IMG/VR virus record: IMGVR_UViG_3300035199_000659
Span: 32,006-96,005 of that record
DNA length: 64,000 bases
Strand: one strand, 5' to 3'
Source of the DNA: a virus
Shown: positions 40,670 through 57,538 of the stretch, one piece after another
Position numbering within the stretch: position 1 is the first letter of the stretch
How the letters are laid out: every line of letters starts with the position of its first letter
The notes under the pieces: generated by a model
What the model saw: only the letters and a program-made list of their open reading frames with translations
Database searches by the model: none
What the model was told of the DNA's origin: nothing
Translations under genes and position numbers: made by a program

Positions 40670-41104
40670 TTATTTTGTTATTTTGCCAGTATATGTATGC
40701 GTGGCGCCATCTGGCGTACTTGAGGCGCGTTTCATGGACAAATCACCGGAAAACACAAAGCTATCCGGGCTATCAGATTGCGCAGCCATGTGCTTCATCA
40801 AGGCGCTGTGAGCATTAGATCTGGCAACACTCCATGCCATAGAGCCCCTTAGCCCCTGTGGAGTTTCTACAGTGACTGTAAAACTCCCATCATCATCCAT
40901 ATCCACTTCACCAATTTCAGCCTGTTGTTGCTGTGTGTCTACTTGCTGAGTGGGTTCCGGTTCAGGCATATCAGGTACATCTGGCGTTCCTCCAAGTCCC
41001 AAAGCAAGCCCTAGACCAGCTAATGCGCTCCCAACTGGCCCCTCATCCAGTTCTTCTTGATCTTCATCCAGATACTCTCGCCAGTTTTCCATTAAGAGCT
41101 TCAT
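40670..41104 (-). CDS. Tagged protein (putative capsid-targeted), Ser/Pro-rich unknown
   Basis: 144 residues, opening MKLLMENWREYLDED: the tag form with a YLDE site at residues 11-14. A flexible linker (AGLGLALGLGGTPDVPDMPE, PTQQVDTQQQQ) precedes a ~70-residue beta domain (DDGSFTVTVETPQGLRGSM) with a DFTV-like core. No family is recognised. The tag suggests delivery into the capsid; the C-terminal domain may be the payload. Abuts 41107, so cotranscribed. Confidence 0.5.
   Translation of the reverse strand: MKLLMENWREYLDEDQEELDEGPVGSALAGLGLALGLGGTPDVPDMPEPEPTQQVDTQQQQAEIGEVDMDDDGSFTVTVETPQGLRGSMAWSVARSNAHSALMKHMAAQSDSPDSFVFSGDLSMKRASSTPDGATHTYTGKITK
41075..41104 (-). repeat. Tag module DNA repeat, diverged copy 1
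   Basis: Start of the gene at 40670-41104, encoding MKLLMENWRE. About six changes in 30 bp relative to the other four, so an older or drifted copy. Confidence 0.55.
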
Positions 41105-41106
41105 GA

Positions 41107-42018
41107 TTAAAGTCCCAGTGCAATCTCGTCAGCCGTCGGGCGAGAGAGGTCTTCCATCATTGCCTCTTCTTCGCCACCAGCGTCGTTTTTCGCCATATCG
41201 TATGCTTGATTGGTGGGCTCTTCTACAGAGCCAGTTAGCTCAGTTTCAAACTTATCAAAATAGAGTTTTGTGTTAGCAATCAAGTAATCATAGAATAGCT
41301 CTTGATCTTCAGGGTTCGAGAGCAGTTCATAAGAATCAATAATGTTACTCTCAATCTTTTTAAAGGTAGAGTAAGCAATATTGCGGCCAGTCTCATCGGC
41401 ACCCTCAATTCCGAAATCTTCGCGAGGATCTTCGGGCTCTGTGTCAGCAGAAATTTCTGAATCAGTACGGATATCAATAAACTTATCGTTATCCTCGGGC
41501 CCAGTTGCATCATCGGTAATCTCGATATCAATTTCTTCTTCCATGGGAGTTTGACCAACCTTACGCCCCATATCAGTGGGAGAAGCCGGATAACATTTGC
41601 CATTTATCTCTTTTTCGCCTTCACCACATTGAACGTTCTCTTCGGTCAGGCCGTCCGCCTCTCCGTCACCAGCCTCATTGTTAGCTTCAATGGGGGTGAG
41701 AGTATCAATGATGGCTTGCACGATGTGCGCACGGAAGGACTTGCGTTGTTCTGGATCGGTTGTCATAGACTTAAAATCATCTTCCAAAACTGGCACAATC
41801 TTCTTAAGAAGCTCCTCAAGCACGTTAATGCCCGTAGACTTGTTGGGTGTAGGATCCACATCTGCAGTCTGGCGCTCATCGAGCGTCTTCATTTCTTCAT
41901 CCATAAATGCACGAATAATTCCACGTAACTCCTGCTCTTCATTCAATTTTTTTGTCTTGACATAGCGGATCAAAGATCGTATACTAGATCTAAGGTTCTG
42001 TTCTTCTTTATGATTCAT
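41107..42018 (-). CDS. Acidic protein, possibly prohead core/scaffold-like
   Basis: 303 residues, highly acidic. Opening with RSSIRSLIRYVKTKKLNEEQE then LRGIIRAFMDEEMKTLDE; long disordered Asp/Glu-rich middle (EEEIDIEITDDATGPEDNDK) and helical C-terminus (IIDSYELLSNPEDQELFYDY). Its two helical segments resemble tag-like helices ending in x-E, and it sits between tagged genes. A scaffold or internal core role is inferred from composition only. Confidence 0.4.
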   Translation of the reverse strand: MNHKEEQNLRSSIRSLIRYVKTKKLNEEQELRGIIRAFMDEEMKTLDERQTADVDPTPNKSTGINVLEELLKKIVPVLEDDFKSMTTDPEQRKSFRAHIVQAIIDTLTPIEANNEAGDGEADGLTEENVQCGEGEKEINGKCYPASPTDMGRKVGQTPMEEEIDIEITDDATGPEDNDKFIDIRTDSEISADTEPEDPREDFGIEGADETGRNIAYSTFKKIESNIIDSYELLSNPEDQELFYDYLIANTKLYFDKFETELTGSVEEPTNQAYDMAKNDAGGEEEAMMEDLSRPTADEIALGL

Positions 42019-44135
42019 GTTTTAATTCCTCTTTCAATAAGTAGTTTGTATACATCCATAACTAAACTCATATCAATATTTTCGTTTTGCTTTTTCTTTT
42101 TAGTGTCGCGCTTACCCGGAGTAAATCCCAAGGTACGCATAACTAAAGGGTCATCTTTCTTTTTGCCCCCACTATTTTGCTCATCTTCATTAGAGTGGCC
42201 ACCAGCAGCGCCAGCCGATGCCATGGACATCTCCTCAAGAGGCTCATTGAGACCCGTATCGATGCCTAGGATGGACAGAAAATCATATACGTCCCCTTCG
42301 CCACCTATGAAATCTTCAAGCAGCTCAAGGGCTTCCTCATCCTCTGTAGCCTTTCCTAAAAGATATCGCATATCAGACGCATGGAAATCACGAGGATCAA
42401 CTTCTGGGTCTGGATTTTTTACACTTGGCATTTCTTCTGCCAAGGGGGATTCCTCTAAAAGTGCCATATATTCTGGCCCGTGTTGGGCGGCCGCGCAAGC
42501 AACACTGCGAGGATCCAGCAGTTCGACCCCATCTCTAATATACTTTTCGGCCTCGGACCACCGTTTCCAATCATCGCACTTCTCACTCGCTCCCAACGTA
42601 AGCACATCGCCCGGCTGTAGGGGGCCCACATCACCCATAAACTCGTATGCGGCTGTCAGTGGCGACGCTGCTGTGGATATTTCAATTGAAACGTTGGGGA
42701 GGTGTGCTGCAAGCGATTCCCACATTCTTTTTGCATGTGCTGCTGTAATGACAGTGCCGTCGGCCAAGGTACGTTGTCTCTTGAGTGGATTAGAAATGAG
42801 AACTTTAACTTCTTCATTGTTTACGGCATATTCTTCGACCATAGCAAGATGTCCCCTGTGAGGTGGCTTGAACGCGCCCGGCACAAGGGCGATCTTTTTT
42901 CCAGCAGCTGCGGCTGGATTGACATCTGCTGCAGCACTATCAACAATATTTAATTCAATAGCGCTCTCTTCGTCATCTTCTTGCTCATTAACTTGCCCAA
43001 ATCCTCCTCCCATATTACCAACAATGAATTCACCAGTAATTTTAACTGGTTTGGGCCCAAACTTCTTTTCATCTCGCAAAACGGCGCCTTCGTGGCCACT
43101 CAGGTCGCCCATGGGGCTAGTTAGTCCTCGCAAGACTTGATTTCCAAGTACGCGGGTGGCATGCATAAAAACAGCACCGTAAATAGCAGCTTCTGCATCT
43201 GCATCGTCAATCAATTCTGTAATTGGCAGCGCTTGATGTAAAATAGCTAAATACAAATTCTTATGTAATGCGTGTGTCTTTCTTTTCAAGCCTAAATCGG
43301 GAAATTCATCCTGCAATGTTACCACCTTATAACGAGGATTAGAAGCTTCATTTAGCCACTCTCCTATAGATTTCGTTATTTCGGTATCATCGCTAATTCG
43401 AACAGTGAATGGCTCGCTTAAAACCTCACTATAATCAATATCAACTTCACTTCTTTCGGTTGGTACAGAAGAATATACTTGAAAGCCATATTTTTCAGCA
43501 AGAGGTTTTAACTTTTCTACTAAACGCTCCATAACTTCAGGATCATAAGAGATTTCGCGACTTGGGTCTGGAAGTGGGACTTCTTTTTTCTTTTTGGCAT
43601 CCCAGATCATCGGCCGCTCGAGTCCCGGGCGATAATTACCCTTACTTGGTCCAGATTTGGCCGTTTTTTCATAAAACTGATTTAAACCGTGAATTGCTAA
43701 AAAATTAGTGTCGTATTGAGTAACATTTGTCGTCCCCTCAACGTATTCAGTATTTAAGAATTTAGTTGGGTCATCCCACATTCCCAAAGCTTCTAATTCT
43801 GGCTGTATGTCTTCAATTGAGCCATTGAGAATTTGTAAAAGAGTAGTAATAGCCACACGCATCCCGTGACCTTCTTTAAATCTCTTATTAACACGCGAAG
43901 CGGTGATACCCTCAATATCTATCATTGCCAAAGATCCGCGATCTACAGCCATTTGCTTTACGTCATCTTGGTCGGTCACTTTAAAAGACACATTAACGCC
44001 GTCAATCTTGACTGCCCCGCCGGCTTTCTTTTCAAGCATCCCCTTGGCCGTTTCAAAAAAATCTAAAAGATCATTTCCTGTGTTTACCCCCTGAAGATCA
44101 AAGGGGTGATTCATATGTCCTGCGCCACCACCCAT
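42015..44135 (-). CDS. Ligase-like nucleotidyltransferase fused to NMNAT-like nucleotidyltransferase
   Basis: 706 residues. N-terminal part: AVKIDGVNVSFKV (K43-G46, KxDG motif I of ATP-dependent DNA/RNA ligases), then GHEGAVLRDEKKFG and KITGEFIVG at about 345-372, like motifs IV and V. Then LVPGAFKPPHRGHLAMVEEY (HxGH of the cytidylyl/NMN-adenylyltransferase fold, about 415-430) and ISNPLKRQRTLADGTVITAA. Length and order are unusual; two NTP-using nucleotidyltransferases in one chain suggest nucleic-acid end processing or NAD/sugar metabolism. C-terminal 150 residues are acidic and disordered. Confidence 0.55.
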   Translation of the reverse strand: MGGGAGHMNHPFDLQGVNTGNDLLDFFETAKGMLEKKAGGAVKIDGVNVSFKVTDQDDVKQMAVDRGSLAMIDIEGITASRVNKRFKEGHGMRVAITTLLQILNGSIEDIQPELEALGMWDDPTKFLNTEYVEGTTNVTQYDTNFLAIHGLNQFYEKTAKSGPSKGNYRPGLERPMIWDAKKKKEVPLPDPSREISYDPEVMERLVEKLKPLAEKYGFQVYSSVPTERSEVDIDYSEVLSEPFTVRISDDTEITKSIGEWLNEASNPRYKVVTLQDEFPDLGLKRKTHALHKNLYLAILHQALPITELIDDADAEAAIYGAVFMHATRVLGNQVLRGLTSPMGDLSGHEGAVLRDEKKFGPKPVKITGEFIVGNMGGGFGQVNEQEDDEESAIELNIVDSAAADVNPAAAAGKKIALVPGAFKPPHRGHLAMVEEYAVNNEEVKVLISNPLKRQRTLADGTVITAAHAKRMWESLAAHLPNVSIEISTAASPLTAAYEFMGDVGPLQPGDVLTLGASEKCDDWKRWSEAEKYIRDGVELLDPRSVACAAAQHGPEYMALLEESPLAEEMPSVKNPDPEVDPRDFHASDMRYLLGKATEDEEALELLEDFIGGEGDVYDFLSILGIDTGLNEPLEEMSMASAGAAGGHSNEDEQNSGGKKKDDPLVMRTLGFTPGKRDTKKKKQNENIDMSLVMDVYKLLIERGIKT

Positions 44136-44396
44136 TTATTTTTCCTCATTCTCGTTTAAAGCTTCTTCAAGAATATTAAGCTTTTCTTCGAGTAAATCGA
44201 CTCTGTTTTGCATCCGCCGGGCGTACTTGCGTACTTCTCTAAGATGTTCGGCGGCCATATCCAATCGACGTTTTTCAGACACGCTTTTTGGTTTAAAATG
44301 CTTTACGATCTCTTGAAGAGACTGTATATACATGAAAATGTCTCGATCAATATTTTCATTGATTAAATATCGTTGCCAATCCTGTTCTAAGGACAT
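44136..44396 (-). CDS. Small helical protein with tag-like start
   Basis: 86 residues: MSLEQDWQRYLINENIDRD resembles the tag (W-x-x-Y-[L/I] spacing) but less well. The rest is an amphipathic coiled coil (HLREVRKYARRMQNRVDLLE, EKLNILEEALNENEEK). It abuts the start of the preceding 706-residue gene. Function unknown; it may be a core or chaperone protein. Confidence 0.45.
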   Translation of the reverse strand: MSLEQDWQRYLINENIDRDIFMYIQSLQEIVKHFKPKSVSEKRRLDMAAEHLREVRKYARRMQNRVDLLEEKLNILEEALNENEEK

Positions 44397-44407
44397 AAAA
44401 CATCCCC

Positions 44408-45670
44408 TTATTTGGTTTTCTTGACTAATGCTGCTCTAATAGCTTTGCGGATAGCCTCTTCCATAGGTCGAGCCCGTGGATCCGGCGCCCCACGCTGAAT
44501 ACGAGGATCTGCGCGCCCTCTTGCTCGACGCTCGTCTAAATCCTCTTCCTTCTCATCATCATAATCGCGATCCTTAATAAGCGCGTCTAAGTGATGCCTA
44601 ATGGCTTTAAGGTGCTCGTCGTCCGACATGGCGTTATCTTCATAATGCTCTTTCTCAGAATCATCATGAACCTTGTGGTGCGGGTGCCGCTTCTCGTAGT
44701 CTTTGCCAGTATCATCTTCATCTTCATCACCCTTGCGGTCACCACCGTGAGAATAATCCTTCTCATCTTCGTGACCGTCGGCGCCATCATCGTCTTTGCG
44801 ATCACCGCCTTCAATAAGGGCTTTCTTGAAAGCTTTCTTAAAACGCTCTTGAATATCTACGACCATCTCGTCTTCGCCGGCTTCGTCGCCGGCCATGCCA
44901 CCAAGGGCCGCTTGCAGACGTGCTACAAGGTCTCCAAGCTCATCAACAATGGCATTGGGATCCTGTGGGCCCTCTTCTTCGCCCGCACTCTGCATAACGA
45001 CCACATCGTCGTCTGCAACTGCTTCCGGCCCATGATCGCCGCAACCCATCTCATCTAGATCTTGCTCTTCGAGTGTTCCGTCGAGGCTTTCTCCAGCCAT
45101 GGCAGCATCTGACACCGCTTTTGCTTCTTCCTCTTTGGTCATCGCGCCAGATTCTGACTCTTCATTTAACTTGGTGAGATCCATCTTGAATCCCCAAGCT
45201 TCGCTAAGGAGGCTTTTAAGCTCTCCGTTTTTCCAATCTTTTGTTGACATAACTTTTTCTACTCCTTTTTGTAGATGTTCAAAATAAATAGTCTGCTTTA
45301 TGCTGTCTTCCCAATCTCGGAAGCATAAATTTCCGATTTCATATGCCTGACGTTCCATTTCACGGAGATGCGAGTCGTTTTGGGCATACCCGTGCCCCAT
45401 TTCGCCGACATTATTAAACTCTCCATTGCAATTTTGAGTATGATGGACCAATTCGTGTGACAACGACCGCATAACGTCCTTTGGGTGCCGGCCATTAATA
45501 TAAATTGTTACTGCTTTCGCGCTTGGATCATAATATGCTGTTTTCCCAAGCGGATCTTGCGCATTTTGCTCATCTCGGCGTACAAAGAGCCTTGGAGGGT
45601 CTTGAAAGCCCATTCTCTCTTGCGCAAACGGCAAAAATTGCTTAATTAGCGGTTTTATGATGTCAATCAT
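44408..45670 (-). CDS. Metallopeptidase-like protein with acidic/His-rich tail
   Basis: 420 residues. SHELVHHTQNC at 71-81 gives the HExxH zinc motif (H72, E73, H76) with REMERQAYEIG as a likely third-ligand helix, so the N-terminal ~115 residues are a compact zincin. Residues after ~140 include WKNGELKSLLSEAWGFKMDL, again tag-like (LLSE), and a long acidic, His/Asp-rich stretch (HEDEKDYSHGGDRKGDEDED) up to a basic end. Perhaps packaged in the capsid and possibly a protease; function unproven. Confidence 0.5.
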   Translation of the reverse strand: MIDIIKPLIKQFLPFAQERMGFQDPPRLFVRRDEQNAQDPLGKTAYYDPSAKAVTIYINGRHPKDVMRSLSHELVHHTQNCNGEFNNVGEMGHGYAQNDSHLREMERQAYEIGNLCFRDWEDSIKQTIYFEHLQKGVEKVMSTKDWKNGELKSLLSEAWGFKMDLTKLNEESESGAMTKEEEAKAVSDAAMAGESLDGTLEEQDLDEMGCGDHGPEAVADDDVVVMQSAGEEEGPQDPNAIVDELGDLVARLQAALGGMAGDEAGEDEMVVDIQERFKKAFKKALIEGGDRKDDDGADGHEDEKDYSHGGDRKGDEDEDDTGKDYEKRHPHHKVHDDSEKEHYEDNAMSDDEHLKAIRHHLDALIKDRDYDDEKEEDLDERRARGRADPRIQRGAPDPRARPMEEAIRKAIRAALVKKTK

Positions 45671-46004
45671 TCAAAAATACCTCTTTTTGCTCCGGAGAAT
45701 ACCAAATATACTCTAAATAGTTCCCAAATGGGTCTTCGACATAAACTCCTATAGTGCCATCGCGATGGTGGATTACCATACCTTGATCTATGGGCAGATC
45801 TTCTCTATTTTCGACTAAAACCGCAAAATGGGCACTAGAATAGTGTTTTCTGTCGATTAAAGCGATATTTGTGTTGGCAACTTGGATTCTAGTATACTTT
45901 TCATCGCGAAAGGTAACCACTCCCTTCAATTTTTGGACATACCACTCTTCTGCAACATCTAAGTCGTCCACCAAGATAGCGATATGGTCAATTCTTGAGT
46001 TCAT
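45663..46004 (-). CDS. Glyoxalase/VOC-superfamily protein
   Basis: 113 residues: IDHIAILVDDLDVAEEWYVQ, then FAVLVENREDLP and VYVEDPFGNYLEYIWYSP, the paired beta-alpha-beta VOC pattern with metal ligands H7 and E near the end. These enzymes act on small metabolites or confer resistance. Its role in a phage is unknown. Overlaps neighbouring genes by about 8-17 bases. Confidence 0.65.
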   Translation of the reverse strand: MNSRIDHIAILVDDLDVAEEWYVQKLKGVVTFRDEKYTRIQVANTNIALIDRKHYSSAHFAVLVENREDLPIDQGMVIHHRDGTIGVYVEDPFGNYLEYIWYSPEQKEVFLND

Positions 46005-46266
46005 ATTTTAATTCGTCTTTTTTAGAAGGAGAAACGAGCCTTAGACTTAAAGTAAAAAATTCTAATTCGCGATTTGAGTCATTGATCGGGATTACACGCG
46101 ATATTGACACAAGTCTGTTAGATTTAATTTCGTTCTTTACCTTAATAATTATCCCGTAATGCATGTCCCAGCCATTTTTTTCTGAATTCCATCGCGACCA
46201 CTCCACTATGTCGCCCACATCAAGATGATCTGCGAAGTTTTCACCAAAAATTGTTTTTTCATTCAT
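45988..46266 (-). CDS. Small SH3-like barrel protein (GD-motif family)
   Basis: 92 residues from the ATG at 46266 (MNEKTIFGENFADHLDVGDIV); the earlier in-frame start lies inside the upstream gene. LDVGDIVEWSRWNSEKNGW then HYGIIIKVKNEIK shows the GD-motif and alternating strands of the barrel family. Function unknown. Confidence 0.5.
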   Translation of the reverse strand: MNEKTIFGENFADHLDVGDIVEWSRWNSEKNGWDMHYGIIIKVKNEIKSNRLVSISRVIPINDSNRELEFFTLSLRLVSPSKKDELKYELKN

Positions 46267-46486
46267 TATACGACACCATCCACGCACAATAACCCCTAAG
46301 TAGGAATCCTTTCATCTTTTCATATGCTGAGACCTCTTCTGTGAATGGGCCATCGGTCATTAAAATGATATTCTCTGTGCTATAGTAATACACAAGGTAA
46401 GCTCGCGCCCCCGACTTTAAGGTGTCGTGGAAAATATACCGTCGCGATCGGCCCAATGATCCTCGTGTGGCTCTCTTGTTGCTCAT
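46259..46486 (-). CDS. Unknown small protein
   Basis: 75 residues starting MSNKRATRGSLGRSRRYIFHD (basic), then SGARAYLVYYYSTENIILMTD and GFLLRGYCAWMVSYNE. Probably a small basic, partly beta protein. No family recognised. Four to eight base overlaps with the flanking genes suggest a real translated unit. Confidence 0.45.
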   Translation of the reverse strand: MSNKRATRGSLGRSRRYIFHDTLKSGARAYLVYYYSTENIILMTDGPFTEEVSAYEKMKGFLLRGYCAWMVSYNE

Positions 46487-46522
46487 TATCAGAAATAAAT
46501 AGCAGCAAAATGCATAACATAT

Positions 46523-46672
46523 TTAAAGATACATAGATTTTTTAGCTTGACATACCAACAGCGCCGCTAATAGACTAATTGTGGTGAACTCAAAGCCCCA
46601 TACACCATATGATATCCATGACAGAATCATAGCTAACACAAGTTTCCAAAAGAAACCAAATTTAAATAACAT
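46523..46672 (-). CDS. Tiny two-helix membrane protein
   Basis: 49 residues from ATG 46672, which shares one base with the stop of the preceding gene (TGATG), to TAA at 46523. MLFKFGFFWKLVLAMILSWI and SYGVWGFEFTTISLLAALLV are two hydrophobic helices. The tight stop-start coupling supports it. Perhaps a holin-like or accessory membrane protein; unproven. Confidence 0.5.
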   Translation of the reverse strand: MLFKFGFFWKLVLAMILSWISYGVWGFEFTTISLLAALLVCQAKKSMYL

Positions 46673-46992
46673 CAGTCAAACCCCGTATAGATTAATTCGT
46701 CTTCTACTACAAGTATAACATCATTCGACGCGGTGTATACCAAAACTCTTCCTAAATCATCTTGTTGGGCGCTTATAATATAACATTTAATACCCCTCGC
46801 AACGCGGACAACAGATTTTTGTGCTGGGTCATAAAACCAGTCATATCCCTGTCCCTGAATAGCATATTCGGGGACCAACTCATCGTCCTCCTTAACAGTA
46901 CCACTCATCTGACTAAAGATTTTTTTTAATAGTTCTTTGTTGATATATGTTGCGGACATATAGTAACTAGATGATGTACAGCAAGGATGCAT
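46672..46992 (-). CDS. Unknown small protein
   Basis: 106 residues, start at 46992 or 46959 (MSATYINKELL); no clear Shine-Dalgarno separates the two. DELVPEYAIQGQGYDWFYDPA in the centre, then KCYIISAQQDDLGRVLVYTA and VILVVEDELIYTG. Likely all-beta. No family recognised. Confidence 0.4.
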   Translation of the reverse strand: MHPCCTSSSYYMSATYINKELLKKIFSQMSGTVKEDDELVPEYAIQGQGYDWFYDPAQKSVVRVARGIKCYIISAQQDDLGRVLVYTASNDVILVVEDELIYTGFD

Positions 46993-47029
46993 AGTTAAAA
47001 TATGCCCCTATTGTAGCAAAAACTTAAAT

Positions 47030-47350: not shown

Positions 47351-47381
47351 AGTAAATCCTCCGGAGCTAACATAAATAGTC

Positions 47382-47393
47382 TCCCCGCGGGGA
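47382..47393. other. Perfect 12-bp palindrome
   Basis: TCCCCGCGGGGA in the gap between the tagged HAD gene and the coiled-coil gene. It could form a GC hairpin in the transcript, but no T-run follows on the minus strand, so a terminator is not supported. A site for a DNA-binding protein is equally possible. Confidence 0.3.
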
Positions 47394-47404
47394 AGAAAAT
47401 GAGA

Positions 47405-47992
47405 TTAATCTGTGCGATCTATATTTTCGTCGATATCTTCAGCATACTTAACTCTTCTTGCGCGTATTTTGATGTCAGGGAAGACGTCTCTTAGTTCTTC
47501 CACTGCCTCTACGTTCTTACCAGAGTCATCAAAGAACAACACATCTGTTGCGCCGGTCCTAATTCTGTCGTGAATCCAAGACGATTTGGCATGAGGGTCT
47601 GAATCGCCTAAAAGTTCAAATGTAATCATAGATGTATCAAGGCCGATGCTCTCAAGATAATCTCGAATGGCTTCCTCGGCTTCAGCCGCCCGCGCCGTTA
47701 AAATTGCAATCTCACGGCCTTCTGTGCCGGCATTAAGTGCGTTACGGATGATGTTTGTAATCTGTTTAATCTCGCGAGGGTTGATAACTTCATCAAACTC
47801 AGAGAAGTCATATTCATAATCTGGATTGATTTTGTGAGTTGCGTATTCGCCCGGAGTCATTGTGATGCTTTCTCCCGTATCGGTGGTAATATGAATATTT
47901 GAATCAGACTTTGCAATTGTGTCGTCAAAATCAAAAACACGTAGCTTTGATTCTTTTAAATACTCTCGCCAATTTTCAAGTAGGAGTTTCAT
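47405..47992 (-). CDS. Tagged HAD-superfamily phosphatase (putative capsid-delivered)
   Basis: 195 residues. MKLLLENWREYLKES with YLKE at 11-14, then directly RVFDFDDTIAKSDS (D21 nucleophile, D23) as HAD motif I, IAILTARAAEAEEA as motif II and VLFFDDSGKNVEAV as motif IV. A full active-site set, so a phosphatase acting on small phosphates or proteins is predicted. The tag ends just before the catalytic domain; cleavage after E14 would leave an intact enzyme. This is one of four genes starting with near-identical DNA (30-bp module). Confidence 0.75.
   Translation of the reverse strand: MKLLLENWREYLKESKLRVFDFDDTIAKSDSNIHITTDTGESITMTPGEYATHKINPDYEYDFSEFDEVINPREIKQITNIIRNALNAGTEGREIAILTARAAEAEEAIRDYLESIGLDTSMITFELLGDSDPHAKSSWIHDRIRTGATDVLFFDDSGKNVEAVEELRDVFPDIKIRARRVKYAEDIDENIDRTD
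47963..47992 (-). repeat. Tag module DNA repeat, copy 2
   Basis: About 30 bp at the 5' end of the tagged HAD gene, encoding MKLLLENWRE; a 23-bp core (positions 47970-47992) differs from the copies at 48511, 49152 and 49847 at only one base at most. The DNA identity is higher than needed for the protein tag, indicating recent duplication or exchange. Confidence 0.75.
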
Positions 47993-48540
47993 ACATCACT
48001 CCCCTTGCTCCTTAGAAATTCTAGATCTTCTTCTGTTACTTTACCGCCATGTTTTTTATAAAACTCTATGTCTTCTTTGGTTGCAAACCTAACTAAATTT
48101 GTGTAATCATCTACACTTACTTCTTCGATAGCGCAAGGAACTACTGGCCCATGTTCTTCTTCAGAAACCCATTCAGGTCTATCATCTGGGACTCCCGTGT
48201 TTCTAAAAGTTTTAGCTGGAAGTTTATATAAATATACTTTCTCTCCATTGCGTATTTCTCCATTAATCGATACTAATTGATCGGACACAGTAGGATTTAT
48301 GAAAGCTTCTGGAAACGAACCATCTGGTTTTCTTACCAAGCCGGGAATAATTGCCCATTCCCTATTTTCATACGCATATATTGCAACTAGATTTTGTTCG
48401 GGATTACCACTAATGTCGTGGGCTTGGCGAGGCTCCAGTGCACCATCGATCTTGTGTGTGGATCCGTGCCACACCACCTCGTCAGGACAACCCTGCTCTT
48501 CTGTTATATACCTTCGCCAATTTTCAAGTAGGAGTTTCAT
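47989..48540 (-). CDS. Tagged protein with ADP-ribosyltransferase-like HGS motif
   Basis: 183 residues from the ATG at 48540, overlapping the neighbour's stop (ATGA). Tag MKLLLENWRRYITEE with YITE. Then EVVWHGSTHKIDGALEPRQA and YAYENREWAII, resembling the H-G-[ST] and Y motifs of PARP-like or related ADP-ribosyltransferases. If so, this would be analogous to T4 Alt, which is packaged in the head and injected. The match is short, so weak. C-terminal half is helical and charged. Confidence 0.4.
   Translation of the reverse strand: MKLLLENWRRYITEEQGCPDEVVWHGSTHKIDGALEPRQAHDISGNPEQNLVAIYAYENREWAIIPGLVRKPDGSFPEAFINPTVSDQLVSINGEIRNGEKVYLYKLPAKTFRNTGVPDDRPEWVSEEEHGPVVPCAIEEVSVDDYTNLVRFATKEDIEFYKKHGGKVTEEDLEFLRSKGSDV
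48511..48540 (-). repeat. Tag module DNA repeat, copy 3
   Basis: 30-bp repeat at the start of the gene at 47989-48540, encoding MKLLLENWRR. The 23-bp core matches the other copies at all or all but one position. Confidence 0.75.
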
Positions 48541-49181
48541 TGCCCCTTCTTCCATTCAATCTCACCGGTCTCAAGATTCCGATAGGCTGTAATCTCAGCA
48601 TTCTTAGCTGCGCTAAACACCGAGAGTGCATTGGATGTCAGTGCCGATAGACCCGCCTTATTTGTCAAACCCGGCGAGTGCCACCATATACCATCATACC
48701 CTTGATTAATCAGCCATTGTTTAAATTCTTTAACGCTCTTCGTCATAGCCCCACTAACATCGGTGCCATCTTCGAGTGTTTGTGGAAACCGCCCCATTAG
48801 ATCGTTGATACTCATTTTGGCAAACTTGCCGTTTAATTTAACTGTTAATATATATTTTCCGCCAAGGGATTTAATGTGGTCGGAATTAAGTAGATTTTTC
48901 TTATCATTACCAAACATGGGCCCGAAAAGGCTATCTAGATTATATTTGCCCCCACCAACACCCGATGGATCCCCAGCAGTATGTGAACCAGTGCGACTAT
49001 CATCAAACTTTGTAAAGGGCCCGGGCGAAACATGGCCAACCTCATGATCTGTTACGTTAAAGGAACCCTGTATCATTTTCTTACCAAAATGTTCAATCCA
49101 TTCAGGCGGATGTGGCACTGTATAGGGTCTGGGTGCTTCTTCCTTCAAATACTCTCGCCAATTTTCAAGTAGGAGCTTCAT
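48537..49181 (-). CDS. Tagged protein, possible ADP-ribosyltransferase-like (PolyVal type)
   Basis: 214 residues: MKLLLENWREYLKEE tag, then FTKFDDSRTGSHTAGDPSGV with a GGKYN segment near the middle and INQGYDGIWWHSPGLTNKAG near residue 160-175. The GYDGI plus a later hydrophobic strand is reminiscent of the ADP-ribosyltransferase domains of polyvalent and MuF-type phage proteins, with the first motif of F-D/S type. The catalytic Glu cannot be confirmed. Overlaps the following gene by four bases. Confidence 0.4.
   Translation of the reverse strand: MKLLLENWREYLKEEAPRPYTVPHPPEWIEHFGKKMIQGSFNVTDHEVGHVSPGPFTKFDDSRTGSHTAGDPSGVGGGKYNLDSLFGPMFGNDKKNLLNSDHIKSLGGKYILTVKLNGKFAKMSINDLMGRFPQTLEDGTDVSGAMTKSVKEFKQWLINQGYDGIWWHSPGLTNKAGLSALTSNALSVFSAAKNAEITAYRNLETGEIEWKKGQ
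49152..49181 (-). repeat. Tag module DNA repeat, copy 4
   Basis: 30-bp repeat at the start of 48537-49181; the only core difference is one C/T change near its start codon end. Encodes MKLLLENWRE. Confidence 0.75.
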
Positions 49182-49183
49182 TT

Positions 49184-49876
49184 CTAATTTTCCACGTACT
49201 TTATATTTCCAAATCCAAGGGCCATGGCGTCTGCGATTGTCGCAACATAGGCGTTCATTGGTGTTCCATCTTCATTTTTAAATCCAGACTCAACCTGTTG
49301 TGCATTGGGGACTTTGCTTATTATATCCTTTTCGACAATAAATCTTGGGCCACTTGGAGGTGGGGTGGGGTCTCCGGGGTAAAAGGTCCAAATAACTGGT
49401 TTTTCTGGATCTTTTGCGTGGCCCGTGAACCATTGTGGGCCAATTAAAAGAGTTGTGCTGTCCACTTGGGGGCGCCCACCTTTAAAGACTGACACGGCCT
49501 CATACGCCGTTTCTCCAGTGTCTGATTTAACTTGCCCCATGTGGGCAGGTTGAAATCTCACTTGCTGCTGTTCTGGCAAACTTCCCACAGGGAGCACACC
49601 CAATACACCGCCGAGGTCGTTCGTTACAAATCCCCGGGCAGGTTCTCTTATATAGCCGTTCGGATCTGGGTGCTGTCCCCAGCCGGCATTTTTGAGTGAT
49701 TCAAGTGTTGCCCCAGAGTCAAAGGTGCTTCCTGCTCCGCCGGGGGCGCGCTGGGAGAATGCTTTTCGGAGGTGCCCTTCGGAGGTGTTCTCCCAAGCTT
49801 GTCCAATTATCTCGGAGTCGGAGACCTCTTCTTCCTCGGTCAAATACTTTCGCCAATTTTCAAGTAGGAGTTTCAT
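49184..49876 (-). CDS. Tagged protein, unknown payload
   Basis: 230 residues, tag MKLLLENWRKYLTEEEE with YLTE. The remainder is a Pro/Gly-rich, mainly beta sequence with QHPDPNGYIREPARGFVTND, VFKGGRPQVDSTTLLIGPQW and VIWTFYPGDPTPPPSGPRF. No family recognised. Cleavage of the tag would leave a ~215-residue domain inside the head. Confidence 0.5.
   Translation of the reverse strand: MKLLLENWRKYLTEEEEVSDSEIIGQAWENTSEGHLRKAFSQRAPGGAGSTFDSGATLESLKNAGWGQHPDPNGYIREPARGFVTNDLGGVLGVLPVGSLPEQQQVRFQPAHMGQVKSDTGETAYEAVSVFKGGRPQVDSTTLLIGPQWFTGHAKDPEKPVIWTFYPGDPTPPPSGPRFIVEKDIISKVPNAQQVESGFKNEDGTPMNAYVATIADAMALGFGNIKYVEN
49847..49876 (-). repeat. Tag module DNA repeat, copy 5
   Basis: 30-bp repeat at the start of 49184-49876 (MKLLLENWRK), sharing the 23-bp core. 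The four copies at 47963, 48511, 49152 and 49847 lie within 2 kb. Confidence 0.75.
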
Positions 49877-49912
49877 TTTTTAACCTCTATAGTGCCAAAT
49901 TAAATAGTCTAA

Positions 49913-50950: not shown

Positions 50951-51762
50951 TACGATAACTCTATTGTGGTGGAACTGGGGTTAAAATATATAACATTAGC
51001 AGTATTCGTGCAATAGCCCACACATCGGACTATATCGCCGGTTCCTGATGGTTGTGTTGTGTCCATGTTTGCGGCAGTCGTTGAAAGGTATACCGGCAAG
51101 CCCGATATAAAGTTTGAGAGATAAGTGGTCGCATCAAAGAAACCTCGCAACAACACGCCGTGAGATGAAGGTGAAGAGCCAAGCGCAATTCCAAGCAATC
51201 CATCGCTTGTGGCTATCGCATCTGCATCCGTCTCTGTCCATGCTCCGCTGCTGTTGAGGTAGTAGATTTTGCCGGCAGTCAGGGTGCCAGTTCCGAAGGT
51301 TGCCACTTCGCCACCGCCTGTGTCGTTTGATAGAGCAGTCGGATTATGGTGAACATCTAGTTTTACTTTTGGGTCAGTCGTTGCAATACCAATGTTACCA
51401 TCATTGTCTATATGCATTCTGTCGGCGCTGTTGACATAAAAACGCAAATCTGACGTGCTGCCCGGCATCCAAACATATGCCGACGATTGGCCATCCTGCG
51501 AAAGTTTGAGGGCTGATTCATCTCCAGCTTCGCTTTCTATCTTTACGTGACAAGTACCCGGACTCTTGACGTGTAAGGTATGGTCCGGCGATGTTGTTCC
51601 AATACCGACCTTTCCATCTTCTACGTATAGTTGTGCGCTGCCACTAGGCCTAAGCGTTATAGTATCTTGGCCAAAGTCAATATATGTTGCGGCGCCGGAA
51701 CGGTCATCTTCAAAGTAGATGTCGCCGCGGCGAACGCTGCCTGTTGAAAATTTATAGCTCAT
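50950..51762 (-). CDS. Tail fibre-like protein
   Basis: 270 residues. N-terminus GDIYFEDDRSGAATYIDFGQ, then TLRPSGSAQLYVEDGK and GIGTTSPDHTLHVKS, the repeated GIGT-SP-x-LHV pattern of phage fibre and structural proteins. It has the same N-terminal scheme (GDI-ED, IDFG, SGSA-L-V) as the gene at 51869. C-terminus is beta-rich. Receptor binding is likely. Confidence 0.65.
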   Translation of the reverse strand: MSYKFSTGSVRRGDIYFEDDRSGAATYIDFGQDTITLRPSGSAQLYVEDGKVGIGTTSPDHTLHVKSPGTCHVKIESEAGDESALKLSQDGQSSAYVWMPGSTSDLRFYVNSADRMHIDNDGNIGIATTDPKVKLDVHHNPTALSNDTGGGEVATFGTGTLTAGKIYYLNSSGAWTETDADAIATSDGLLGIALGSSPSSHGVLLRGFFDATTYLSNFISGLPVYLSTTAANMDTTQPSGTGDIVRCVGYCTNTANVIYFNPSSTTIELS

Positions 51763-51861
51763 CTAGGCGCCCCCATATGTAATCCACAGCTCGATTATCT
51801 CTTCGTAAGCCTGTAACTCACTTAAGTCTAATTCATCCAGCGCTTGGTCTAAGAGTTTCAT
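51763..51861 (-). CDS. Tiny protein between fibre genes
   Basis: 32 residues from ATG 51861 to TAG 51763: MKLLDQALDELDLSELQAYEE then IIELWITYGGA. It exactly fills the gap between two fibre genes (7 bases after one stop, adjacent to the next start), which suggests translation; it has tag-like MKLL but no cleavage site. It could be an assembly chaperone. Confidence is limited by its length. Confidence 0.4.
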   Translation of the reverse strand: MKLLDQALDELDLSELQAYEEIIELWITYGGA

Positions 51862-51868
51862 AAGAAGA

Positions 51869-53923
51869 TCACACTGAAGAACTGTGAGACGACAAAGTCA
51901 TCCATACATCGGCGTTTGACGCCAACGTCCATGATTGTCCGATCGACCCCGTGATGGAGATACCCCCATCGATTGTCTGAGAACCACTTGGTTTAATCAC
52001 CAATAATGCGCTATTTGAGTTTTTGATCGTGTAAACAATGCCATCCACAGTTGTCGCATCGGGCAGAGAGGCCGTAAGAATATTTGAGCCATGGCCAATA
52101 TAGACAATACTGTCGGCGTTTGTTAAAGTATAGCTAGCGCTCTTGTTGGTATATTTTCGATAATTTGAGCCATTCTGGCGCAAGGCCCCAGCGATTAACA
52201 GATCGGCGCTAGCTAAAGTCTCCACAGACGCAGTTATAGCATTCGTTCTGCCGTCCATTCGAAGGTACTCGGTACCAGTGGTTCCCGCCGTTGTTACTTC
52301 GAATAGCATATAGCCGGATTCACTAGTGTTAGTGGGAGATCCTATTTTGGTACTTATCTTGCTGTATTGTGTTTCGGCGGATGTGGAATCTTTAGACTTA
52401 AACGTAACACCTCCGCAAAAATCATCAGCCTGACCAGCATTACCAGCGCGAGTGTTAATTAAATCAAGAACTGCGCCGAAGGCGTTGTTACTGGTATTGT
52501 TTGCTTGAATTATCGGAGAAGTTAGGCTTTGCACGATCAATGTGGAGCCATCAAATGTCAATTGGCTCTCAACATCCGCTTGGGCAACACCACCATATGT
52601 CACGAGTCCGTTTGCAGTTGAGCCGTTAAAGGAAAGCCCCGGGACATTAGTGAGTTGACTACCGTCACCATAAAATTTGGAACCTGAGATATTTAATGAA
52701 CTTGAGATATGTGTGCTATCGATAATGGTGGCTTGCGTACGCAACATAGTGCTTTCGACCTGACTAGAACAGGAAACAGCTGTAGCTGCCATGGCCACAG
52801 AAGCTGTCAGGGTGCCCCGACCGCCATCGAGCGTTAAATAAGTAGTGCCAACCCCGCCCGGCTTAGCCTGCAGCAGCAAATCACCCCCGGTCGCATCTTG
52901 GGCTACTATTAAGTTCCCCCCAGACCCGAGCTTAAGATATGATTTAGCAGTGCCGTTGGTTGCAAATCTTAAATAAGCATCTGCGCTGGCGCCAGCATCG
53001 ATTGTTGCTTCTGTCACTCCCGCGCCGTTAACATGCAAGTCATAGACCGGAGACCCGGTACCAATGCCAAAATTTCCATTTCCTTTTACAACAAACGCTG
53101 GATTCGCTATATTGCTTTTAGCTGCGAGAAGAATCCCATCGTCTGAGCCGCTTACATTAAGGGTGCCGGTAAGGTACGCACCCCCAACTGTGACTTTACC
53201 AGAACCAGTAATCGCCAGAAGAGTGTCATAACTTGGTGACTTAAATATTGCGACTAGTTCACTATCAGCTTGCGCTTTCACATACAGCCGTGTGGAGGCG
53301 GTGTCTTCGCCAATAGACAACTTTCCTACAGAGGTGTTCCCAGAGCCAGATATATCTCCCGCCACAACTAAAGTAGAACCATCGAATGTCAACCCAGCCT
53401 CGGCCGAAGCTTGAGCACCCCCATCAGAAGTTATAACTCGATTAGTGCCGGCGTTCGAAAGGGTGGTGATAGACGGAGCGGCGCCATTTCCTGCTGCTGT
53501 GAGTCTCCCCTGTGCGTCTACAGTTAAACTAGAATATGTATAAGAACCTGCGCTAACTGAAGTGTTGTCCAAGGAGACAGTGACTGTGCGCCCGGATTCA
53601 GCGGTTGAAATGGGCGCCGTGCCGGCAATTGTGGCTGTTTGGCCATTAGCAACTGCGCTTGTGCCGGAGTCGCCTCCGATAGTCCAGCTAGACATAGTGC
53701 CACCAGAACCAGTAATTCCCTGAAGCGCCGTCCCATCTCCTGAAAATGCCGATGCTGTCAATGCAACTGTGCTTGTTACTGATGTGTTGGTGACGGTAAG
53801 TCTGGCCGAACCACTCGTTGTCAAGGCAATCGAGTCTGAGCCAAAGTCAATCTGGGTATCCGGATCATCTTCATTTTTGATGTCCCCTAAGCCACGGGGC
53901 CCTTTCGAAGTGTTATATGCCAT
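51869..53923 (-). CDS. Large tail fibre protein
   Basis: 684 residues, rich in Ser, Thr, Gly and Ala with a repeating beta pattern (SGSARLTVTNTSVTSTVAL, LSIGEDTASTRLYVKAQ, GIGTGSPVYDLHVNGAG). N-terminus GDIKNEDDPDTQIDFGSDSI matches the shorter fibre. C-terminus SYTLTNADSIVYIGHGSN and TIDGGISITGSIGQ is typical of trimeric fibre tips. Predicted receptor-binding fibre shaft with tip. Cotranscribed with 50950 and 49913. Confidence 0.7.
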   Translation of the reverse strand: MAYNTSKGPRGLGDIKNEDDPDTQIDFGSDSIALTTSGSARLTVTNTSVTSTVALTASAFSGDGTALQGITGSGGTMSSWTIGGDSGTSAVANGQTATIAGTAPISTAESGRTVTVSLDNTSVSAGSYTYSSLTVDAQGRLTAAGNGAAPSITTLSNAGTNRVITSDGGAQASAEAGLTFDGSTLVVAGDISGSGNTSVGKLSIGEDTASTRLYVKAQADSELVAIFKSPSYDTLLAITGSGKVTVGGAYLTGTLNVSGSDDGILLAAKSNIANPAFVVKGNGNFGIGTGSPVYDLHVNGAGVTEATIDAGASADAYLRFATNGTAKSYLKLGSGGNLIVAQDATGGDLLLQAKPGGVGTTYLTLDGGRGTLTASVAMAATAVSCSSQVESTMLRTQATIIDSTHISSSLNISGSKFYGDGSQLTNVPGLSFNGSTANGLVTYGGVAQADVESQLTFDGSTLIVQSLTSPIIQANNTSNNAFGAVLDLINTRAGNAGQADDFCGGVTFKSKDSTSAETQYSKISTKIGSPTNTSESGYMLFEVTTAGTTGTEYLRMDGRTNAITASVETLASADLLIAGALRQNGSNYRKYTNKSASYTLTNADSIVYIGHGSNILTASLPDATTVDGIVYTIKNSNSALLVIKPSGSQTIDGGISITGSIGQSWTLASNADVWMTLSSHSSSV

Positions 53924-54088
53924 TTAATATTCCTCTGCGCGCCCTTCCAACAATAATTGCTGGTTAATGTTGCATGCGCCTATAAATAGTGTGCCCAAAC
54001 ATCTTCCGTACTTGTCAACACCATGAGACTCAATAATTAGCTCCCCTATGCGTTCCCCGGCCGCATTGCCTTGTACTTTCTCGCCCAT
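53924..54088 (-). CDS. Truncated staphylococcal-nuclease-like fragment
   Basis: 54 residues from the ATG at 54088 (GGAG at good spacing): MGEKVQGNAAGERIGELIIES, then DKYGRCLGTLFIGACNIN and LLLEGRAEEY. This matches the C-terminal half of SNase domains (DKYGR-LG-xx, IN-LL-x-G-A-x-Y). The N-terminal strands with the Arg and Glu catalytic residues are absent, so no nuclease activity is expected by itself. It may bind DNA or a partner, or be a relic. It overlaps nothing. Confidence 0.6.
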   Translation of the reverse strand: MGEKVQGNAAGERIGELIIESHGVDKYGRCLGTLFIGACNINQQLLLEGRAEEY

Positions 54089-54089
54089 C

Positions 54090-57032
54090 TTATTCTCCTT
54101 TGCCAAAAACATATATAATTGGAAGCGCGATGTCCGTTCCACACTTCTGGGCCGCTATAAATCGGTTTGCGCCACTAACAACTTGATTAGATATCTCTCC
54201 CTTAGTAACGACCACAGGCTTTTTGATTCCCTCAGTACAAAGCTTTTTCCACACATCTTCTTGAATGTCGGCACCGCGGGTGGCTTCAACTTGTAATACG
54301 TACTTCTCAATTTCGCTTTTATGGCTTTTGACGCTAATGGTATCTTCTTCAGTCGCCACATCGTTTCGGTTAATGTCGTTGTCTTGAAGCCATTTGTTTA
54401 AATCATCATCTGCGGACTCCTGTGTGCCCGCAGCGGCCTCCTCTTGCTCAGTAAGGCGCCCCAGCAGTTTATCGACCCTCAGTATATCAAATTCTTCGCG
54501 AAGATCTCCCACTGCTGTGCCTGACATGCCAACTTTCTTCCGGAGTATATCACGAAAAACCTCGCTAACCACTTTGTCAATGTCGCCTTGATCGTCCCAA
54601 ATGTTCACTAATTCTTTGAGAACATTAACCTGCTCGTCAGGGTCCTCCCCGTGTATTGAGAAATACAAATTAAGTTCTTGGCTCTCGCCTTCTGTTCCGT
54701 GTATGCCAAATAAATCCATGTCTAGGGGCATTTGCGGATACATAGCTCCGCCAGTGGCTGCAAATGCCGGCACTGCCATCCGCCGGCGAATTTCAAGCCA
54801 GAAAATGCGATCATTCATAATCTGCATAGCTTGTTCTTCAGATGCTCCTAAATCCTTGTACCAGACCTCTGGGTGGGCAGTAAATTGCACAAACTCGATC
54901 TCGTCAGGCTCATAACCTTCTTCAACTTCAGCTTCCCAGTGGTAAAGGTCCATTTCGTCATTCATCACCTCGCGACCTAATGCCATGGCAGCCCCGCCGG
55001 CCATGTAGCCTTCTCGCTTGAAAAAAGTAGTCAACATTTGTTCAACGGCGTTGTATTTGTCATCTACTTCTACGTTAACTACGTCACAAAACTGTTCATA
55101 GCTATCCGGGTCGTACGCATATTCTTGCCCGTCAAATCCTACTAGTTTTTCTGGTATGACTGTAATCGGAAGCTTCCATCTACCATCGTTCATTTTCTGA
55201 AACACATATGGGTATTTGTCATCGGCCCAGTTCATCCCCCATGGTTCTAATTCTTGCAAACCGTGGCTAATCACATCAACACCGGGCATTTTCACAAAAT
55301 CCTCGCCGTCCCACCACATAAGAAGCGTAGCTTGACATGTGATATAGACACCACCGCCACCATCATCAACTGCGGTACCTTCGACAAAGGTGGATCTATA
55401 ATCGCGATTATAGTCTTCTGTTATCGTGTCACACTCAGTTTGATATCGCTGAATAAGACCGCCAAGCAGAAGTTCACTATCTAGCTCGTCTTCAGTTTCG
55501 CTGTCCTGTCGCACATATCCTTCAGTTCCGGAAATCAAATCACCAAACAAATCTTGTAACTGCATACTCATCGGGGTATCGTTTTGTGTACCTCCAAACT
55601 GAACAAGTTTCTCTAAGTTAAGCACACTGCTCCAGCCGTCGCGACCCGCTCTGGGTGCGTTCTCCATTTCCCTTTGCTGCACTTCTCGCAGCCATTTGAT
55701 TAGGCGCTCTTGAATGCCCGGGATTTGAGTCCCGTATACACGCCTCTCCACCGAAGCTAACTGGGTTGCCGACGGATCGCCCGCGCTGGTCGCGATCACG
55801 GCCGTGGCCACGTCGTCGAAATATTCAAGTTTGCGAATTCTTAAACGAGAGATAGGCAGTAAGTCGATTTCACTAGCCCTCCGTCGGCTGTTATCGTAAA
55901 AGATCTCGCCCATACTATTGATAGTGCGCTCAGCTTCTTCTAAATCAGCAGAAGCGGTATCTCCTAATAGTTCAGACGTTTCAACTACATATGCAAGGGC
56001 GCCATGTCCATGTGCTTCTGCTACCGCACACTTATAATACTCGCCCCCGCCACCTCTCGATGGAGGAGAATGACAAGATGTGATATTTTCAAAATCGGAC
56101 ATACGCCAAACATCAATAGGATCGCGAGTAACAATAATAGAATATCGATCACTGGTGAGCCCGGCGATATTCTCCTTAAGGTATTTGGCATTGTTTAGCC
56201 AATAAACCCCCCAGTCAACAAATTTAGTCTCCGGAGTAATAATCGGCTGCCGATTTCTAGGCTTTTTACCGTGTTCTATATCAGCTTGATCTTGTTCCTC
56301 TCGGCGCTCCTCTTCACTCTTTTTCCATAAAGCCTGTTCGAAGTCATTCATAATCCAATCAGAAAATTGGGTCAGAAGACTCATCCCGGTAAGGAACTCG
56401 AGCTGGTTTAGAATTTGCGCGTACCTCTCATGCTCCTTTTCTGAAAGATTCTCTAGCGTCTCTCCTACGGTGACCCGAGCCTTCCACAAGGGAATGTTCC
56501 CCAAGTTTCGGCCTTTGTGCACTTTCTCAGCGACTTTCTCCTTCATTTCTTTGAGTTGAATTATAAGGTCATCTACTTTGGCTAGATACCGGCCGATTTT
56601 CATATGAAGTTTTTTCTTCTTGGGTGGGCTCCCTCGGCCGCCCATGAGCCGGTCGACCAAGTCCTTCTGCGTGTTCTTGTGGTCAACCCACTCTCTTTCG
56701 ACCGAGACCATGCCTTTGTCCCAATCAACATCTAAGCCAAACTTGTGTTGAAGCAAATTAACAAATTGGCCGAGTTCAGATGTGTAATCAAAAGAGGGAA
56801 AATCAAGAACAAGACGTGATTTATCCCCAAAAATCTTTTGAAAAGCCAAATCATCATATGTTAGCTCGTCTATTGCGGCCGCAATGTGTTCAAACTCATC
56901 TTCGGTTACCTCTCGAAGAAGTTTTTGTTTGTTTTCGAGTTTTATTCGAATTCTTGTCTCCTTGAAGGGGACATTTTCTGTCTGAGAACTTTCTTTTAAG
57001 AAATTTCGCCAAGAATTATTCATATTTTCCAT
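54090..57032 (-). CDS. Large tagged protein (980 residues), possible internal head protein with ParB-like C-terminus
   Basis: Tag-like opening MENMNNSWRNFLKESS with FLKE. The middle has TRDPIDVWRMSDFENITSCHS and a Gly cluster (SRGGGGEYYKCAVAEAHGHG), plus acidic helical and W-rich segments. The last ~55 residues (KPVVVTKGEISNQVVSGANR, then FIAAQKCGTDIALPIIYVFG) fit a ParB/sulfiredoxin-like domain (I-x-x-G-x-x-R-x-x-A-A). A function in DNA contact inside the head is inferred. Largest of the tagged genes; length and multidomain form suggest a jumbo internal protein. Confidence 0.5.
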   Translation of the reverse strand: MENMNNSWRNFLKESSQTENVPFKETRIRIKLENKQKLLREVTEDEFEHIAAAIDELTYDDLAFQKIFGDKSRLVLDFPSFDYTSELGQFVNLLQHKFGLDVDWDKGMVSVEREWVDHKNTQKDLVDRLMGGRGSPPKKKKLHMKIGRYLAKVDDLIIQLKEMKEKVAEKVHKGRNLGNIPLWKARVTVGETLENLSEKEHERYAQILNQLEFLTGMSLLTQFSDWIMNDFEQALWKKSEEERREEQDQADIEHGKKPRNRQPIITPETKFVDWGVYWLNNAKYLKENIAGLTSDRYSIIVTRDPIDVWRMSDFENITSCHSPPSRGGGGEYYKCAVAEAHGHGALAYVVETSELLGDTASADLEEAERTINSMGEIFYDNSRRRASEIDLLPISRLRIRKLEYFDDVATAVIATSAGDPSATQLASVERRVYGTQIPGIQERLIKWLREVQQREMENAPRAGRDGWSSVLNLEKLVQFGGTQNDTPMSMQLQDLFGDLISGTEGYVRQDSETEDELDSELLLGGLIQRYQTECDTITEDYNRDYRSTFVEGTAVDDGGGGVYITCQATLLMWWDGEDFVKMPGVDVISHGLQELEPWGMNWADDKYPYVFQKMNDGRWKLPITVIPEKLVGFDGQEYAYDPDSYEQFCDVVNVEVDDKYNAVEQMLTTFFKREGYMAGGAAMALGREVMNDEMDLYHWEAEVEEGYEPDEIEFVQFTAHPEVWYKDLGASEEQAMQIMNDRIFWLEIRRRMAVPAFAATGGAMYPQMPLDMDLFGIHGTEGESQELNLYFSIHGEDPDEQVNVLKELVNIWDDQGDIDKVVSEVFRDILRKKVGMSGTAVGDLREEFDILRVDKLLGRLTEQEEAAAGTQESADDDLNKWLQDNDINRNDVATEEDTISVKSHKSEIEKYVLQVEATRGADIQEDVWKKLCTEGIKKPVVVTKGEISNQVVSGANRFIAAQKCGTDIALPIIYVFGKGE

Positions 57033-57073
57033 AGTTTATCCACCCACAAGTGTATTCCAATCGCAAAAAGCAC

Positions 57074-57538
57074 CTAACTAAGTTTTTCCATTGCTCTGTC
57101 CAATAAATAGGCTGGAAATGTTCTTAGTTCTAGAGATTTATCGTCTTTTACATCTTCTATGGACACCCACTTTGAGTCATTGTGCTCAATAACCCCTGTT
57201 TTTGGATTTTCTTGAAACTTTATTGTACCAGACCATTTTGTGGTTGTATAAAAATATTTATCTGCGTCTCCCGTGGTTACTTTGTCAACATAAATGAGGT
57301 CCTTTTTAGACGACGTGAGGCCTGTTTCCTCTTCCAACTCACGAAGGGCTGCAGCTTCAATTGATTTGTCGTCGTCATCTACATGTCCCCCGGGGAGATC
57401 CCAATGCCCCTGTTTAGTATCTTCGTCTTTGGAGCGTTTAATCACCAAAACTTTATCCCCTTCATTGACACAAATGATACAAGCTATAGTTTTCCGCTTT
57501 TTCTTGACTTCATTTAAAAAGTTATGCCATTTTTTCAT
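57074..57538 (-). CDS. Tagged Nudix hydrolase
   Basis: 154 residues from ATG 57538 (MKKWHNFLNEVKKKRK), tag-like with FLNE. The Nudix box at 50-74 is GGHVDDDD-KSIEAAALREL-EEETGL: REL-EEETGL is intact, but the first conserved Glu is replaced by Lys with one extra residue, so activity may be altered. Nudix enzymes hydrolyse nucleoside diphosphates linked to another moiety. A capsid-packaged Nudix could act early in infection. It starts five bases after the trypsin gene end. Confidence 0.7.
   Translation of the reverse strand: MKKWHNFLNEVKKKRKTIACIICVNEGDKVLVIKRSKDEDTKQGHWDLPGGHVDDDDKSIEAAALRELEEETGLTSSKKDLIYVDKVTTGDADKYFYTTTKWSGTIKFQENPKTGVIEHNDSKWVSIEDVKDDKSLELRTFPAYLLDRAMEKLS

Follow-up and report, generated by a model that had tools for sequence, protein, structure and literature searches.

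The closest described counterpart of the N-terminal tag reported here is the capsid-targeting sequence (CTS) of phage T4. Mutations in the CTS showed that targeting depends mainly on residues 4 and 7 and processing on residues 8 and 10, and the prohead protease gp21 cleaves after [LI]-x-E (PMC9026906). The N-terminus of T4 ipII and ipIII is MKTYQEFIAE. In the cyanophage S-CREM2, the virion proteome includes a SAM hydrolase, an APH/ChoK-like kinase, a cytidylyltransferase, a Cas9-like nuclease, and hypothetical proteins (PMC10665884 Table 3); its authors noted that the non-structural virion proteins could be carry-over (PMC10665884). In the literature searched, we found no description of the present tag motif or of capsid targeting in marine or metagenomic phages. 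We consider it likely (probability approximately 0.85) that the tag is a lineage-specific form of the T4 CTS, cut after [LI]-x-E and borne on rapidly exchanged cargo, with packaging, cleavage, and injection being inferred.

The window, the whole 64,000-base stretch analyzed, corresponds to bases 32,006-96,005 of a 96,005-base IMG/VR virus record. This record covers a large phage only partly; it encodes three tRNAs and a tmRNA, along with tail and baseplate-like genes. The preliminary description had reported a shared N-terminal tag on eight window proteins, the good copies ending in [LI]-x-E. Both claims held: all eight N-termini were present as described, all on the - strand, and all eight carry [LI]-x-E, shifted by one residue in the 86-aa protein at 44396 (Y-L-I-N-E). 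Five start with the long tag, MKLLxENWRxY[LI]xE; the other three have a shorter form, W-x-x-[YF]-[LI]-x-E (Table 1). A profile of the long tag scored the five proteins at 29.5-32.2 bits, clear of all others, followed by the Nudix short form at 11.1 bits. The claim that the looser forms at 44396 and 57032 are the same tag held only in part. With this profile they were no better than background (9.0 and 8.1 bits, respectively); W..[YF]L(L)NE is conserved in about ten orthologues of the 86-aa protein, and the 57032 leader is not conserved among relatives of the 980-aa protein.

Table 1. Features of the window, with tags given together with the residue that follows them.
Feature	Coordinates	Strand	Tag codons	N-terminus	Tag	Remarks
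230-aa protein	49184..49876	-	49832-49876	MKLLLENWRKYLTEE	long, MKLLLENWRKYLTE then E	payload orphan
214-aa protein	48537..49181	-	49137-49181	MKLLLENWREYLKEE	long, MKLLLENWREYLKE then E	payload nearly orphan
183-aa protein	47989..48540	-	48496-48540	MKLLLENWRRYITEE	long, MKLLLENWRRYITE then E	payload function unknown; longer ORF call begins 48555, tag ATG is 48540
195-aa HAD / polynucleotide-kinase-like phosphatase	47405..47992	-	47948-47992	MKLLLENWREYLKES	long, MKLLLENWREYLKE then S	PHROG 415, E=3.4e-9
144-aa protein	40670..41104	-	41060-41104	MKLLMENWREYLDED	long, MKLLMENWREYLDE then D	
Nudix hydrolase	57074..57538	-	57506-57538	MKKWHNFLNEV	short, MKKWHNFLNE then V	PF00293, E=4.1e-22; ORF call begins 57574
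86-aa protein	44136..44396	-	44352-44396	MSLEQDWQRYLINEN	short, MSLEQDWQRYLINE then N	
980-aa protein	54090..57032	-	56985-57032	MENMNNSWRNFLKESS	loose, MENMNNSWRNFLKE then S	weak ParB-like C-terminus
706-aa NMNAT/cytidylyltransferase-like protein	42015..44135	-				PF01467, E=2.6e-4; ligase-like KIDG motif; adjoins tagged genes
420-aa protein	44408..45670	-				HELVHH metalloprotease-like motif (sequence motif)
303-aa protein	41107..42018	-				between NMNAT-like gene and tagged gene; conserved in relatives; N-terminal LRxxIRxxI helix-like motif
Phage tmRNA	39436..39771	-				Rfam, E=4e-47; tmRNA tag peptide ANNNTHFESVRLAA
Series of sugar-nucleotide, isomerase-like, and methyltransferase-like genes	14272..27068	-				from ORFs only

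The motif is concentrated at these N-termini. W..[YFW][LIVM] occurs 15 times in the 31,154 aa of the 96-kb record, eight of them at the starts of the tagged proteins, and the stricter core [FYW]..[FYWH][LIVMF].E was found N-terminally seven times versus 0.9 expected (P=4.4e-5). The same core was N-terminal in 8 proteins versus 1.0 expected in G001, 8 versus 1.2 in G003, and 5 versus 1.1 in G047.

The payloads of the window are varied. As proposed in the preliminary description, they include a HAD protein, which is HAD/polynucleotide-kinase-like, and a Nudix hydrolase. The possible ADP-ribosyltransferases were not confirmed: at E-values up to 10, the 214-aa protein had no Pfam match and the 183-aa protein none that was ART-like, and AlphaFold models of the two payloads were unusable (pLDDT 35-38). 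The ParB-like assignment was not confirmed either, resting on E=0.1 only. An IMG/VR search found no relatives for the payload of either the 214-aa or the 230-aa protein; the former has one tagged homologue, in L029 (37% identity). Among the neighboring genes, the NMNAT-like domain is joined to an N-terminal domain containing KIDGVN and HEGAVLRD, a resemblance to nucleic-acid ligases by motif only. The equivalent of the domain of the 420-aa protein sits inside an NMNAT-annotated protein in Flavobacterium phage immuto. Elsewhere in the window, the series of sugar-related genes may reflect phage-directed modification of surface sugars, a possibility inferred from sequence alone by reading of the ORFs.

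The distribution of the tag was evaluated at the DNA level using the pattern M-[KN]-x-hydrophobic-hydrophobic-E-N-W-[RS]. At least 120 IMG/VR stretches matched and yielded 170 ORFs, with up to seven in one contig. The reversed pattern matched 8 times in the whole IMG/VR collection, and the tag pattern was absent from 32 of 32 random IMG/VR contigs. Among bacterial and archaeal genomes (257 Gb), a stricter form of the tag matched twice (L197 and L198). Both loci are likely phage stretches because of the neighboring leaders: L197 has several ENWR-type genes as well as the second tag described below, and at L198 a second W..FI leader lies next to the match. Searching isolates by tblastn with the 20-residue tag gave no useful match, a weak test with so short a query; the window HAD and NMNAT-like proteins were also without a match in isolates. 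The phages that carry the tag are related to T4, have not been cultivated, and are mostly marine.

Conservation was calculated from 134 non-redundant tagged proteins, in which positions 11, 12, and 14 lie outside the search pattern. Position 11 is Y/F/W in 117, position 12 is L/I in 99, and position 14 is E in 101 (p<=1e-54 for each). The [LI]-x-E element falls within residues 10-28 in 116 of the 134 long tags and is missing from that interval in 18. Among the 45 tags of non-canonical spacing, a shifted [LI]-x-E was present in 27 (60%), as in YLLTE, KSSNLITE, GYEKEVLSE, and PPTLNE; the corresponding rate in background windows drawn from these proteins was 17.6% (p=2.5e-10). The tag and this pattern of conservation are shown directly. 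Such independence from spacing is what a protease site requires; cleavage itself is inferred from sequence alone.

The tag also matches the T4 CTS in register. The window Nudix leader, MKKWHNFLNE, has spacing identical to that of MKTYQEFIAE, and the long tag, W8-x-x-Y11-L12-x-E14, is a T4-type core preceded by four extra residues; the core common to both is aromatic-x-x-aromatic-[LI]-x-E. Like a CTS, the tag is a short N-terminal leader (10-19 aa) on otherwise unrelated proteins (134 tags, 86 payload clusters), its W..[YF][LI].E matches the targeting and processing positions of Y-x-x-F-I-x-E at the same spacing, and its [LI]-x-E is conserved as an independent element.

The diversity of the payloads is likewise shown. 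The 133 payloads formed 86 clusters, including 60 singletons, with no BLAST similarity at 1e-4 between clusters. Pfam and PHROG families represented included HAD/polynucleotide kinase, GNAT, DUF192, M23 peptidase, amidase, RNase T, exonuclease, Nudix, ParB-like, and deoxyribonucleotidase/nucleotidase, and many payloads were orphans. Matches of tagged proteins to tape-measure and portal families were few and weak; the protein behind the Pfam portal match is probably L059, which is likely a chance match to the pattern because it lacks [LI]-x-E. Three enzymes (HAD, Nudix, and deoxyribonucleotidase) carry differing leaders in different phages. Relatives of the HAD protein mostly have the long tag; exceptions are L066, with MKNFNNIWRNYLTE, and G001, with MLKKWKQFLSE. 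Of the Nudix relatives, those in L066 and L033 bear the long tag and the others short forms. ENWR tags precede the deoxyribonucleotidase of L093, L039, and L063; its leader is a different one in Flavobacterium phage immuto, Pelagibacter phage HTVC008M, and Methylophilales phage Melnitz.

No prohead protease was matched in the 96-kb record, which is incomplete. A gp21-type (S77) protease is present in the relatives G047, G053, and G054, reached through a gp6-like protein; in G047 (195,690 bp), gp6 is 54% identical and the protease match has E=7e-35. Tagged genes abut or lie near the protease gene: the gene directly upstream of gp21 in G053 starts with MKLILENWNNFVNEE, the gene directly downstream in G047 starts with MSEPKSFHDSWKNYLVES, which contains a SWKNYLVES leader, and a tagged gene beginning MKLIMENWRQF lies two genes upstream of gp21 in G014. 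These observations, too, are shown. Several tag contigs have the head order terminase, portal, gp21, scaffold-like, and major capsid protein, from comparison of ORFs with T4 and Melnitz; this T4-like order (gp17-gp20-...-gp21-gp22-gp23) has HMM confirmation for gp21 only. By sequence reading, several contigs have a protease that itself starts with REYYELCxGGVCQDLLTE, and LLRE precedes the apparent mature start in the major capsid proteins of the tag phages.

Co-occurrence of tag and protease was rejected as proof of capsid targeting and is weak support only, because random large IMG/VR contigs carry the S77 protease just as often: it was found in 11 of 32 tag contigs versus 10 of 32 random contigs, and in 4 of 4 random contigs of >=139 kb. 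The idea that the tag mimics the N-terminus of the major capsid protein (T4 gp23, ELLNKWKPLLEGE) was not supported; in a long-tag profile scan of one genome, the major capsid protein ranked fourth of 262, via a different submotif.

Leaders of this type are found on virion proteins of cultured cyanophages. We tested the 218 translated CDS of S-CREM2 (OR473000; loci L334 and L330) for a T4-register leader and found it on seven, of which five are virion proteins, versus 47 of the 211 others (p=0.009). A first CTS expression had given p=0.057 and the T4-register expression was chosen afterwards, so the lower value is indicative only. The leaders are MKDFDSFLEE for the SAM hydrolase, MKRFDAFLTE for the kinase, MKNFSSFLTE for the cytidylyltransferase, and MKDLHSFLTE and MQTFSMFFSE for further virion proteins; they are F-x-x-F, not W-x-x-Y, and the proteomics was of whole virions, not heads. 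The virion NMNAT of S-SCSM1 starts with MKSFLQFLKEA (PMC9602691), and its orthologues start with MKSFGQFLTEA in S-SSM7, MKKFSAFLNEA in S-SM1, MKKFSAFLKEA in P-SSM3, and MRSFLTFLTEA in ACG-2014f. The shared MKxFxxFLxE leader is not mentioned in the sections consulted of the S-CREM2 and S-SCSM1 papers (PMC10665884, PMC9602691).

The preliminary description had further proposed that these proteins are targeted to the capsid, loaded into the head, and injected. This reading is supported by the T4-register core, the spacing-independent [LI]-x-E, and the many unrelated payloads, as well as by the gp21-type protease of relatives, the protease-adjacent tagged head genes, and the cyanophage virion proteins. 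In the proposed mechanism, the core aromatic-x-x-aromatic-[LI]-x-E would bind the assembling prohead core, such that any late protein bearing the tag would be loaded into the head. A gp21-type protease would cut after [LI]-x-E and free the payload, which would exit with the DNA at infection and act early in the host. Payloads would be swapped fast and the leader retained. For the present phage, core binding, cleavage, packaging, and delivery are all inferred, and the absence of virion proteomics for any ENWR-form phage limits the claim.

An alternative is that the 5' stretch encoding the tag is a DNA or mRNA element, such as a recombination cassette, a translation leader, or part of a promoter, and that the peptide itself is without function. 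In its favor, codons 3-10 are fixed beyond what the peptide requires (CTC-CTA-CTT-GAA-AAT-TGG-CGA-AAG). Compared with the rest of the same genes, the tag uses CTC at L3 in 42% versus 9%, CTA at L4 in 54% versus 11%, CTT at L5 in 98% versus 25%, and CGA at R9 in 49% versus 13%; fixation falls to background after about codon 13. Moreover, the identical 24 bases ATGAAACTCCTACTTGAAAATTGG occur in G000, G034, G041, and G047; the gp6-like proteins of these relatives share only 54-61% identity. Against this alternative, all 15 relatives have W..[FYV][LIV].E in the Nudix leader despite variable residues ahead of the W, and [LI]-x-E is retained at altered spacing. These two observations argue that the constraint acts on the protein, and we consider the alternative unlikely. 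A protein address and DNA-level shuffling could nevertheless both hold. The codon fixation and shared bases may reflect recombination within the tag or a further nucleic-acid constraint, alternatives that were not separated.

It is also unlikely that the tag addresses proteins not to the head core but to a different part of the phage, such as the tail or baseplate, or to a partner in the host. There are no localization data for the tagged proteins and the S-CREM2 proteomics does not resolve heads, which leaves room for this alternative. Against it, the tag agrees with the protease motif and is in register with the T4 CTS, tagged genes adjoin gp21 in the head module, and no baseplate or fiber protein was named in the families listed among 130 tagged proteins. 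Finally, that the tagged genes are paralogues of one family with a common N-terminal domain, as their frequent tandem arrangement and the high DNA identity in the tag might suggest, is very unlikely given the mutually dissimilar payload clusters and distinct Pfam/PHROG families.

The capsid-targeting reading may extend to a second tag, MKITKxQLKxIIKEE, found in at least 120 IMG/VR stretches and represented by 138 non-redundant proteins in 117 payload clusters (loci L350-L425). It shares contigs with ENWR tags (L027, L028, L080, and L086), occurs in the present record (L001:182-637 and L001:3925-4914), and is like the N-terminus of a conserved gene adjoining gp21. It could be a second head address, for which there are no localization data. 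In a bolder reading, to which we give rather less than even credence, the tag is a cassette at both the DNA and protein levels, two or more head addresses (ENWR and LKxIIKEE) coexist in one lineage, and recombination in the conserved 24-30 bases swaps payload genes from phage to phage while the head address is retained. If true, the repertoire of injected effectors would be open-ended. Separately, two adjoining proteins of Flavobacterium phage immuto (L329, 9631-10931) start with NFNLRSFLTENKLTKNAQLLKE and NFDLKKFLVENKLTTNSKILKE; located near terminase and gp21, these leaders are possibly a further lineage-specific tag.

If the capsid-targeting reading is true, a short N-terminal motif predicts from sequence which proteins of uncultivated T4-like phages are carried in the head and probably injected, and many unannotated phage genes become candidate early effectors and counter-defense proteins. 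The few internal proteins of T4 might then mark the lower extreme of a cargo system that is large and changes rapidly, and the tags would be usable for loading proteins into phage heads.

Compared with known systems, the tag is most like the gp21-cut CTS of T4 IPI, IPII, IPIII, and Alt: in both, a short N-terminal leader with identical core spacing precedes unrelated proteins, and relatives of the tag phages encode a gp21-type protease. The tag differs in having W at the first aromatic position, where T4 has Y/F, in the four extra residues before the W of the long form, in its unusual codon fixation, and in the 86 payload clusters of the sample versus T4's handful. Like the NMNAT/cytidylyltransferase, SAM hydrolase, and kinase of S-CREM2 and S-SCSM1 virions, which bear MKxFxxFLxE-type leaders, tagged proteins include non-structural enzymes, and the window also has an NMNAT-like gene beside its tagged genes; the cyanophage leaders are F-x-x-F and lack ENWR. 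In phiKZ and SPN3US, many packaged and ejected head proteins are matured by a diverged gp21 homologue (PMC9026906), but those are cut at S/A-x-E and no comparable short shared tag appears in that review (PMC9026906). The tag system is far larger in scope than the known CTS cases.
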